Assembly: GCA_937918935.1 (NCBI GenBank)
Contig: CAKZSI010000071.1
Span: 1 to 64,000 of the forward strand
Direction: 5' to 3'
DNA from: an uncultured Chloroflexales bacterium
GTDB lineage: Bacteria > Chloroflexota > Chloroflexia > Chloroflexales > Chloroflexaceae
Length of the DNA stretch: 64,000 bases
Shown here: positions 4,798 to 32,089 of the stretch, piece by piece
Layout: every line of letters starts with the position of its first letter
Position numbering within the stretch: position 1 is the stretch's first letter
The notes under the pieces: generated by a model
The model's database searches: none
Seen by the model: the letters and a program-made list of their open reading frames with translations, nothing else
Told to the model about the DNA's origin: nothing
Translations under genes and position numbers: made by a program

Positions 4798-4970
4798 TGG
4801 TCAGGGAGGAGGGTTCGCGGAAGTGCTACGCCCTCCCGGCCCCTCCCCTTCGGCAGGGGCATGGGGAAACCGCGACGGTGGCTCGCTCGGAGCGCATCTC
4901 ACGGCCTCGCCGCCCCTCCCTTTCAACAGGTGCGTGGGGAAACCAGGTTTCCCCACGTTCCTCCAACGGT
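4798..4970. repeat. Composite palindromic repeat (families A and B)
   Basis: The gap holds a B-like arm (CTACGCCCTCCCGG), a partial A element (GCATGGGGAAACCGCG near 4860) and a perfect A palindrome, CGTGGGGAAACC-A-GGTTTCCCCACG, at 4933-4957. It separates the cyclase gene from ricT, both leftward. No open frame here looks like a gene. Confidence 0.85.
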
Positions 4971-28606: not shown

Positions 28607-28649
28607 TTGACAATCAGTGGATCTACGGTAAAATAAGAACATTAGTTCT
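28607..28649 (+). promoter_or_regulatory. Sigma-70-type promoter overlapped by a LexA-type palindrome
   Basis: -35 TTGACA (28607-28612), a 16-base spacer, -10 TAAAAT (28629-28634), then AGAAC-ATTA-GTTCT (28636-28649), a perfect 5+5 palindrome at the expected transcription start. GAAC-N4-GTTC is the core of LexA boxes in Gram-positive-type SOS systems. Repression of the following two genes by LexA is inference. Confidence 0.6.
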
Positions 28650-28680
28650 CATACTGTTCCACAACCCTCCCACGCACGGG

Positions 28681-28706
28681 ATGCGGGGAAGCCAGGCTTC
28701 CCCGCA
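28681..28706. repeat. Palindromic repeat, family A
   Basis: ATGCGGGGAAGCC-A-GGCTTCCCCGCAT: a perfect inverted repeat of 12 or more bases in the leader of the next gene. It could form a hairpin in the mRNA. Confidence 0.85.
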
Positions 28707-28906
28707 TCCCCAACCAGGAACGCGTGCGGCGGGTTCTTGAGGGGACGGGTCGGTGACGGCGCGTCTCCTGGACCCTTCCCCACACGCCTTCGGGGGGCAA
28801 CCGGAGGGGCTGGGCAAGCTATGCGCGCCCGGTAAACCCTCATTCTCCGACCATGGTTCGCGCCGACGTAACACGGGCGAACGCTCCAGGAGGAAGGAGG
28901 TGAACA

Positions 28907-29419
28907 ATGGCGGTGACGAGCAGGGAACTCGGCGGGAACATGGCCCCTGTCCCCCGGAACCTGGGGCCGGCGGCCTACGTTCTGACGTTCTTGCTGGCGG
29001 CCCTGGCCATCCACGTGCTGGTGGGCGCGGCGGTGGAACGGGCGCGCGTTGCAGTGGACGATCTGCGCCATGGCCGGCCACGCACGGCCCACGTGACGGG
29101 GTACGTCGGCCATGGCGCGGAAGGCGTTGGGCGCCCAACCCATATCGTCGCTATGAACCTGGAACGCCAGGTAGTTGTGCTCGAACTACCCGGGAGCGAT
29201 CCGCAGCAGGCCCGTAGCCTGCCGGGACCGTACCTCTTCGGAGCGCGCCAGGAGCTTGCGCCTGTGGTATTATCTCTTCTAGATATGGACGGTGACGGTC
29301 TTGACGATCTGGTGCTTACGGTCAACAACGAACAGGTCGTCTATCTCAATCGCGAGGGCGCATTCCGTCTGCCCACGGCGGAGGAGCAGGCGCTGCTGGC
29401 GCAGGAGCAACTTCCGTGA
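28907..29419 (+). CDS. Single-pass membrane protein with FG-GAP-like Ca-binding motif
   Basis: 170 aa. One transmembrane helix (about 23-43, AAYVLTFLLAALAIHVLVGA), then an outer domain with a beta-strand repeat ending in LLDMDGDGLDDLVLTVNN, an Asp-rich DxDxDGxDD motif as in FG-GAP/VCBS repeats. A very strong ribosome-binding site (AAGGAGG) precedes the ATG. The last four bases overlap the GTG of the following hydrolase-like gene, so the two proteins are translationally coupled and probably act together at the envelope. Function unknown. Confidence 0.8.
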   Translation: MAVTSRELGGNMAPVPRNLGPAAYVLTFLLAALAIHVLVGAAVERARVAVDDLRHGRPRTAHVTGYVGHGAEGVGRPTHIVAMNLERQVVVLELPGSDPQQARSLPGPYLFGARQELAPVVLSLLDMDGDGLDDLVLTVNNEQVVYLNREGAFRLPTAEEQALLAQEQLP

Positions 29420-31179
29420 GCACATCCGACGACCAGGATCGTCCAGCGGATCAGCGGCGGCGCAAGCCTCATTTTGCTCTGGAGGGCGAGGATATCGCCC
29501 GTAAGAAGCGCCCTCCTCAGCCGCTTTCGACCCTCTTCGCCAGCGATGAAGCGGACTTTCCTACTTTCGCCGAGACACGTCCCGACCGCGCGGTCCGGTC
29601 TCGCCGCGATCATCGAGCAGCGGAAGGGCGCCCCGCCGCGATGGCGAGCGATGGGGGATCTGCTGAACAACACGGCCCTCCGCGCGCCAGAAAGGAGCAT
29701 TCACCGGCGCCCCGTGTGGACAGGCAAGCGACACGGCCAGGCTACGACCGGTCGCCCACCCCGATCAGGCAAGACCCGCGACCACGCCCGCTCGCGCCTC
29801 CCTCCGGGCCTGGCGGGTCCGATGAGCGGGTACGGCCGAAGGGTGACGAGGGGCGCGTCGTCGTGCGAACGGAGCGCGCGCGAACCCGCCTCGACACACG
29901 CTACGCTCTCCCTGATGATATCGGGCCCGACCCCGGGCCGCCAGCGGCGCTGCGCCCGGCGCAAGCGCGGGAAGCGCCAGACACCGCCGGGTGGCGAGAA
30001 CCCCTGACACTGCTCGACACATGGCTCGGTCCTCTGCTACCGGCAGTGCCGGCGGAGTTCGGGCATTGGAGCAAGGTCGCGCTGATCGCGCTGGTGAGCC
30101 TGGTGTTGATCATCGCCCTCCGCGGCGGACCGGGCGATACGCCCCTGGGCCGCTGGGTGGAGGCGCGCCTCAATGGCTATGAAGGCAGCGAGGCGATGAT
30201 GGGCGCCGTGGCGCGCCCGATGGGCGACTATACCGTCGAAGGGCCGCCAAGTCTCACCCCGCAACAGATTGACGCCATCCTGCGCTCCTATGGCTCGCCC
30301 GCCACGGGAACGGGCAACGACTGGTACAACCTCGGCCGGAAATACGGGATCGACCCGGCCTTTGCCGTGGCGTTCTTCATCCACGAAAGCGGCGCCGGCA
30401 CCAACCCCAACTGGGCCGGGATCAAGCCCGGCGGTGGTACGACCCACAACGTCGGCAACATCATCTGCGCCGGTTACCCGACATGCTACGGACGCTTCCG
30501 CGACTACGGCTCCTGGGCAGAGGGCATTGAGGATTGGTACCGCCTGATCTCCATCGAGTACATCCAGGGGCGCGGCACACGCACCGTGGCCGAGATCATC
30601 CCTATTTACGCCCCGTCCTTCGAGAACGATGTTCAGGGGTACATCAACGTTGTCCAGCGTCTGGTGGACGAGTGGCGCGCGCAGTTCAACAGCCCGGCCC
30701 AGCCCCTCCGTGGCCGGGGCCTGCCCGATGACGCTCGACCCCAGGGCAACCCGCTGCGGGCATCGAATACCATCGTGACCCAGGGCTACGGCGTCGGCAC
30801 CCACGCCCCCGTCGAGGTCTGGGGCGCCATTGATCTGGCCCTCGATGGCGATGGCGATGGCAGGGCCGATCCCGAAGGCACGCGGGAGCGTCCGATCTAC
30901 GCCACCCATAGCGGCGTGGTCACGGTCACCGCCAACAGCTACCCGGCAGGCAACCACATCTGGGTGACCAATGCTGCCTACCGCACCGGCTACGCCCACC
31001 TGGCCTCCTTCGCCGTCAGCGATGGGCAAGCAGTGCGCCGCGGCGACCTGATCGGCTACATCGGCTCCACCGGGATGTCGTCTGGTCCGCACCTGGATTA
31101 CCAGGTCTGGGTCCGGCAGGGTGAGCGGTGGGTGAACGTCAATCCGCTGGAGTACGGGGCGTTGGAGCCGATGCCATAG
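29416..31179 (+). CDS. Membrane-anchored glucosaminidase-like and degenerate M23-like protein
   Basis: 587 aa. Residues 1-200 are charged, Pro- and Arg-rich and probably disordered in the cytoplasm; one transmembrane helix is at about 217-236. Outside, residues 275-425 resemble glucosaminidase (lysozyme-like) domains, with FFIHESGAGTNPNWAGIKPG and a helix-rich end. Residues 455-575 resemble LytM/M23 peptidases: IYATHSGVVTVTAN, YAHLASFAVSDGQAVRRGDL, GSTGMSSGPHLDYQVW. Zn ligands look altered: the HxGxD motif reads WGAID and the HxH reads HLD. It may bind rather than cut peptide cross-links. The GTG start overlaps the previous stop. Possible role in cell-wall remodelling. Confidence 0.75.
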   Translation: MSTSDDQDRPADQRRRKPHFALEGEDIARKKRPPQPLSTLFASDEADFPTFAETRPDRAVRSRRDHRAAEGRPAAMASDGGSAEQHGPPRARKEHSPAPRVDRQATRPGYDRSPTPIRQDPRPRPLAPPSGPGGSDERVRPKGDEGRVVVRTERARTRLDTRYALPDDIGPDPGPPAALRPAQAREAPDTAGWREPLTLLDTWLGPLLPAVPAEFGHWSKVALIALVSLVLIIALRGGPGDTPLGRWVEARLNGYEGSEAMMGAVARPMGDYTVEGPPSLTPQQIDAILRSYGSPATGTGNDWYNLGRKYGIDPAFAVAFFIHESGAGTNPNWAGIKPGGGTTHNVGNIICAGYPTCYGRFRDYGSWAEGIEDWYRLISIEYIQGRGTRTVAEIIPIYAPSFENDVQGYINVVQRLVDEWRAQFNSPAQPLRGRGLPDDARPQGNPLRASNTIVTQGYGVGTHAPVEVWGAIDLALDGDGDGRADPEGTRERPIYATHSGVVTVTANSYPAGNHIWVTNAAYRTGYAHLASFAVSDGQAVRRGDLIGYIGSTGMSSGPHLDYQVWVRQGERWVNVNPLEYGALEPMP

Positions 31180-31504: not shown

Positions 31505-32089
31505 ATGCAGCCCCGTCTGAGGCGGAGCGCCACCGAGTCAATGGTGGCGGGCGTGTGCGGCGGTCTTGCCGAGTATTTCAATATTGACCCGGTGATCGTG
31601 CGCCTGATCTTTGTGGTAGTGACCCTCACCAGCGGGCTCGGCTTGCCGGCATACCTGATCCTGTGGGTGGTGATGCCCGGGGCGCCGTCAACCGGCGCGC
31701 AGCAGTCCGTTGACCGGCGTGCCCGCCGGGCCCAGGCGGCGTGGGAGACGAGCCAGCCGGCCACAACGGCGGTTGGCCGAGAGGGTCCTGAGCGCCAGGC
31801 CCGATCCCGGAGCGGCCTGGAGGTTCGGGAGTCGCCCCCGGAAGGCTACGACCCGCTCACCGGCCAGCCGTTGGGAAAAGAGGAACCTGCCCCCGGTGCG
31901 GCCCCGGCGCCACCCCGGGAAATGCCGGTTCAGCCCGAGCGCCGCAACACACGCTGGCGCACCCTCGGGGCGATACTCATCGGCATCGGAGGCGTGGTCC
32001 TGCTGGATCAGTTTGGTATTGACACGTCGTTCCTCTTCCCTGCCCTGCTGATTGTCGCCGGAGCGATCCTCTTGCAACGACAGCGTTGA
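31505..32089 (+). CDS. PspC-domain membrane protein
   Basis: 194 aa. The first 60 residues are a PspC domain (RLRRSATESMVAGVCGGLAE, then YFNIDPVIVRLIFVV, with a helix to VVMPGAP). A disordered Pro/Glu-rich linker follows, then two C-terminal transmembrane helices (about 150-192, GAILIGIGGVVLLDQF and FLFPALLIVAGAILLQ) like those of LiaF/DUF5668-type proteins. In bacteria PspC domains sense envelope stress; the partner here is not visible. AGGAG precedes the ATG. It follows the cell-wall hydrolase-like gene, a fitting envelope-stress context. Confidence 0.88.
   Translation: MQPRLRRSATESMVAGVCGGLAEYFNIDPVIVRLIFVVVTLTSGLGLPAYLILWVVMPGAPSTGAQQSVDRRARRAQAAWETSQPATTAVGREGPERQARSRSGLEVRESPPEGYDPLTGQPLGKEEPAPGAAPAPPREMPVQPERRNTRWRTLGAILIGIGGVVLLDQFGIDTSFLFPALLIVAGAILLQRQR

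Follow-up and report, generated by a model that had tools for sequence, protein, structure and literature searches.

The locus at positions 28,607 to 31,179 of the 64,000-nucleotide stretch of Chloroflexales DNA analysed here (the window) raises the question of what controls two overlapping genes for envelope proteins, and what their products would do when made. An earlier note had described a consensus-like promoter overlapped at its start site by a GAAC-N4-GTTC palindrome, and this was borne out. The sigma-70 type promoter (28607..28634, forward strand) comprises TTGACA (28607-28612), a 16-bp spacer, and TAAAAT (28629-28634), and matches the consensus at 11 of 12 positions; it is followed by AGAACATTAGTTCT (28636..28649, assigned to neither strand), a perfectly palindromic sequence that covers the predicted start site. 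In orthologues, too, the box is framed by these promoter elements, and it is on its conservation there and on related dyads at lexA and recA that we predict this palindrome to be a LexA-type operator.

The bare palindrome is weak evidence and alone could be due to chance in the window, where GAAC-N4-GTTC occurs twice against 0.53 expected; the whole 4.6-Mb genome holds 82 copies. One perfect site elsewhere in this genome, GAACATATGTTC (G000:C8:202665; L014 1501-1512), lies downstream of a moaC-like gene. What lifts the palindrome at the locus above chance is its conservation in orthologous promoters, a check that the earlier note had proposed. Within 400 bp upstream, a perfect GAAC-N4-GTTC is present in 22 of 30 orthologous Chloroflexales promoters and a copy with one mismatch in a further six, i.e., 28/30 with no or one mismatch, and no box was found in the two others; at the density seen in the genome itself, 30 x 400 bp should contain about 0.2 perfect sites. 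The box overlaps the promoter in one of two ways: it exactly fills the TTGACA/TATAAT spacer in 20 orthologous promoters and lies over +1 or the start region in eight, including that of the window. A site that is shifted relative to the promoter among genomes, yet kept, is as expected if it is under selection as a repressor site. Orthologous promoters beyond the 30 mostly show this arrangement as well, and some have two boxes; of the nine perfect AGAACANNTGTTCT sites in 12 genomes, five stand before members of the gene 1 (FG-GAP) family. A second, stand-alone FG-GAP copy is also boxed: in the window's own genome, AGCACATATGTTCT (17.2 bits) stands about 300 bp ahead of this paralogue, and that of another genome (G030) has two degenerate boxes.

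In Bacillus and Actinobacteria, and by extension in Gram-positive bacteria, LexA recognizes the box GAAC-N4-GTTC (PMC3323433). The window's own genome encodes RecA (E 2e-136) and one clear LexA, with a helix-turn-helix (HTH) match at E 3e-18 and with the self-cleavage residues (Ala-Gly, Ser, and Lys) readable in its sequence. A second LexA was rejected: the second HTH match to pass the cut-off is in a protein that looks DtxR-like, and the third fell below the cut-off. A scoring matrix was built from the FG-GAP promoter sites and applied to the 400 bp upstream of lexA and of recA in 30 genomes each; the resulting lexA and recA scores are independent of the FG-GAP sites, whereas scoring the FG-GAP promoters with it is circular and is not taken as proof. 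The mean best score was 7.0 for lexA promoters (-1.9 in first-order shuffles; 22/30 at p<=0.05) and 8.2 for recA promoters (-1.8 in shuffles; 26/30 at p<=0.05). The same type of operator is thus found in both promoters of the group and at conserved positions: TTGACAGCACAAGTGTTTG...TATACT with a half-site after the -10 element for lexA, and GAAC-N4-GTGC touching TATAAT for recA. The comparison with lexA and recA that had been suggested earlier therefore holds across the order but is weak in the window's own genome, whose lexA and recA sites are degenerate (3.7 bits, p 0.04, and 4.7 bits, p 0.03, respectively), so that it is the order, and not this genome alone, that carries the case. In G030, where 1730 upstream regions from 2.0 Mb of a 5.8-Mb single-contig genome were ranked with the matrix, the FG-GAP promoter came 1st, recA 20th, and lexA 30th. 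In the same genome, a gyrA-like gene is preceded, at a distance of about 110-125 bp, by an 11.0-bit box (~902505).

The Y-family polymerase (PF00817) was detected in seven of 41 Chloroflexales relatives and is missing from 34, the window's own genome among them. Boxes lie directly upstream of a dinB-like gene (17.9 bits), an imuB-dnaE2 pair (15.1), and an imuA-imuB pair (12.8), these gene names being a reading of the translations; four of the eight Y-polymerase loci scanned had no box. A gene whose membrane-protein product is VanW-like, by a weak Pfam match, carries a recA-type box at its promoter in Roseiflexus-like genomes, with 16.0, 21.5, and 11.2 bits (L237 6306-7082, at 3.606 Mb of G030; L278; L279). 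As a general member of the regulon it was rejected, because it is present in only five of the 41 relatives and boxed in the three closest.

From the conservation of the box, the sites shared with lexA, recA, and translesion-polymerase genes, and the G030 ranks, LexA is the most likely repressor of the envelope operon, and we consider it very probable that LexA holds the operon off and that DNA damage releases it. The proposal of a LexA operator made in the earlier note is thus well supported, both by the orthologues and by dyads at the promoters of lexA, recA, and some imuA-imuB, imuB-dnaE2, and dinB-like genes. A literature search limited to open papers turned up none on a Chloroflexi LexA motif. 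RegPrecise does have a Chloroflexi collection, and its LexA regulogs cover more than 25 groups (PMC3840689); a predicted Chloroflexi LexA motif, even with the envelope operon as a target, may already be recorded there.

Two other accounts of the palindrome have to be set against LexA. The window's excess of GAAC-N4-GTTC over expectation would fit a chance palindrome in front of ordinary constitutive envelope genes, but this is made extremely improbable by the 28 of 30 orthologous promoters that have kept the box and by the first rank among 1730 regions in G030. A more serious candidate is another dimeric repressor with a GAAC-type half-site, whose targets would be just the two FG-GAP genes plus a small number of envelope genes, for example the VanW-like gene, the likeness to lexA and recA boxes being coincidental. 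In its favour, palindromy is clearly better in the FG-GAP boxes than in the lexA and recA boxes, the latter are weak in the window's own genome, and other perfect sites stand before unrelated genes, e.g., a glyoxalase gene. Such a repressor is nevertheless improbable: it would leave to coincidence the dyads common to lexA, recA, imuA-imuB, imuB-dnaE2, and dinB-like genes at promoter-critical positions, and the genome has a single clear LexA-type HTH protein. LexA is therefore the regulator assumed in what follows.

Behind the operator the two genes overlap by 4 bp, as had been reported (28907-29419 and 29416-31179, forward strand), an arrangement that suggests translational coupling. Gene 1 (28907..29419) begins with an ATG preceded by a strong Shine-Dalgarno sequence, AGGAGGAAGGAGG (28888-28900), and encodes a 170-amino acid protein with a small predicted extracytoplasmic beta domain. 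Its earlier description as single-pass and FG-GAP-like stands. Hydropathy gives one transmembrane (TM) segment at about residues 24-43, and there is a single FG-GAP/calcium-type motif (DMDGDGLDD) that is below the curated Pfam cut-offs (FG-GAP_3 E 2.6e-4). An FG-GAP propeller was rejected: several repeats, as expected of a beta-propeller, are not present, and the AlphaFold model is poor (pLDDT 65) and gave no significant fold match. The family is nonetheless widespread, occurring in 39 of 41 relatives in the order and in 84 of 158 genomes of the class, usually with two members per genome. The hydrolase genes come after gene 1 in most relatives, which have a three-gene operon with the TM-glucosaminidase and the M23 protein as separate neighbouring ORFs; the fused form, here of 587 amino acids, occurs in the window's genus and a few others. 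DxDxDG calcium-type loops occur in both products, that of gene 2 being DGDGDGRADPEG, and it is possible that the two have calcium dependence in common.

The predicted 5' leader (28641..28906, forward strand, RNA fold z -4.7), counted from the predicted start site, contains a perfect 15-bp GC-rich hairpin at ~28678-28710, GGGATGCGGGGAAGCCAGGCTTCCCCGCATCCC. A riboswitch or other known RNA was rejected here, as Rfam gave only hairpin matches below threshold and none above the cut-off. Leader length is not conserved; orthologues have anything from 61 to about 290 bp between box and start. The hairpin may be a small dispersed repeat because a near copy of its core, GGGGAAACCAGGTTTCCCC, is present at 4936-4954 of the window. 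Downstream, the next gene (31505-32089) encodes a PspC/LiaF-like envelope-stress protein; it lies 326 bp past gene 2, and at this locus there is no sign that it shares the operon.

Gene 2 (29416..31179) has a GTG start and encodes a predicted 587-amino acid type II membrane protein. A basic, proline-rich N-terminus of about 216 residues is followed by a TM segment predicted from hydropathy (~residues 217-239; 30064..30132), a glucosaminidase-like domain (residues 303-414; 30322..30657) with a putative catalytic Glu324 in FIHES, and a LytM/M23 domain (residues 429-587; 30700..31176), all on the forward strand. The Peptidase_M23 match is above its Pfam cut-off (E 3e-19), and that to Glucosaminidase (PF01832) is just below (E 2e-6; 29.0 bits against 30.2). 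The TM anchor, the M23 match, and the borderline Glucosaminidase match are in line with the earlier view of a TM-anchored glucosaminidase/M23-like protein, but its description as an M23 hydrolase needs correcting at the zinc ligands. Whereas the Glu of the glucosaminidase-like (H/V)ES motif is retained in orthologues, the first M23 zinc ligand, the His of HxxxD, is Trp in all aligned orthologues (WGAID or WGxxD); in the window it is Trp469 (WGAID473), with His528 and His559 kept. The second His of HxH is Asp (HLD) in most orthologues, HLH being found in Roseiflexus-like genomes and a few others. Note that the alignment with solved structures begins past the HxxxD motif, so that the register is set by two features, the GxxDLA block and a conserved P-x-[YH]AT...G farther on. 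The place of the lost ligand might conceivably be taken by an invariant His, His463, which precedes the Trp by six residues. The ligand set of an active M23 metallopeptidase (HxxxD plus HxH) is, as read, incomplete. The predicted LytM model (pLDDT 79; one of five models was confident) matches DipM (Z 16.7), active ShyA (16.2), EnvC (15.8), and SpoIIQ (15.2), and this near-tie means that fold alone cannot separate an active from an inactive enzyme. A LytM fold combined with a lost metal ligand is, however, the mark of a degenerate LytM factor, and because the first zinc ligand is lost in every orthologue examined, the M23 domain is probably a regulator like EnvC, DipM, and SpoIIQ.

Put together, a LexA operator that silences an envelope operon, with a change in the wall released by damage, is a likely explanation of the whole locus. 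In undamaged cells a LexA dimer would sit on the site, inside the -35/-10 spacer in most relatives and over +1 here, and block RNA polymerase, leaving the operon silent. On DNA damage, a RecA filament would trigger self-cleavage of LexA, and the operon would be expressed. Two products would result: the FG-GAP-like protein with its single TM segment, and a glucosaminidase that is anchored in the membrane and fused to a degenerate LytM domain. The likeliest course is that the glucosaminidase would trim glycan while the LytM domain docks on or activates a partner enzyme, and that wall growth or daughter-cell separation would be altered until repair is complete. During the SOS response, the two proteins, if they act together, may delay separation, halt septation, or remodel the wall; delay of division in particular is proposed by analogy.

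The direction of the effect is less certain than its trigger. That the products act from the membrane on the wall, delaying or changing septation or separation, has in our estimate about an even chance, and we favour it over a second possibility, that under the same LexA operator cells with severe damage have their wall loosened or lysed by these products in a programme of lysis or fragmentation (for example, filament breakage or release of contents). Chloroflexales are multicellular filaments, which suits fragmentation, and the glucosaminidase-like domain retains its Glu; moreover, the strongest palindrome in the sampled genome would suit tight repression of a costly product. However, both products are tethered to the membrane and the M23 part looks inactive, so that regulated local cutting fits better, and the operon is chromosomal and conserved throughout the order. 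Lysis is therefore the less likely outcome, although a distinctly stronger contender than the alternative repressor. Returning to septation and separation, the widest form of this reading is put forward only tentatively: that the SOS response of Chloroflexales is envelope-centred and largely without Y-family polymerases, with the FG-GAP/glucosaminidase/degenerate-LytM operon as LexA's best target, joined by the second FG-GAP copy and, in Roseiflexus-like genomes, the VanW-like gene, and that these genes form a septation or separation checkpoint of a new protein type in filamentous bacteria.

SOS checkpoints are known from a few phyla, with unrelated proteins in each, and this one, if true, would add a phylum. 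It would also bring in a protein type undescribed for SOS, as far as the literature found goes, with wall remodelling instead of mutagenesis or repair as the best-scoring target. The operators and genes are directly testable in growable organisms (Chloroflexus, Roseiflexus, and Herpetosiphon).

SOS wall-active membrane proteins do exist in other bacteria, e.g., ChiZ (PMC3989709) and YneA (PMC13396833). Compared by features and not by homology, ChiZ (Rv2719c) of Mycobacterium tuberculosis has a LysM domain, whereas the operon described here pairs a glucosaminidase and a degenerate LytM domain with a membrane protein of FG-GAP-like type. YneA of Bacillus subtilis, SosA of Staphylococcus aureus, and DivS of Corynebacterium are SOS-induced division suppressors. 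YneA itself, which targets FtsW, combines one TM segment with an extracellular domain that binds the wall (PMC13396833); the gene 1 product, by contrast, has an FG-GAP-like beta domain and no LysM. The gene 2 domain resembles EnvC, DipM, and SpoIIQ in its LytM fold with lost metal ligand(s), but differs in being joined to, or co-transcribed with, a glucosaminidase behind an SOS-type operator. The LexA regulons of Bacillus and Mycobacterium have the same type of operator, GAAC-N4-GTTC, and likely the same regulator family; what sets the present case apart is that an envelope operon scores best among the targets of the sampled genome, in an order where most relatives lack Y-family polymerases. 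The gene pair sits behind what is apparently the best LexA site, and this suggests that envelope remodelling is one central element of the DNA-damage response of the filamentous Chloroflexales.
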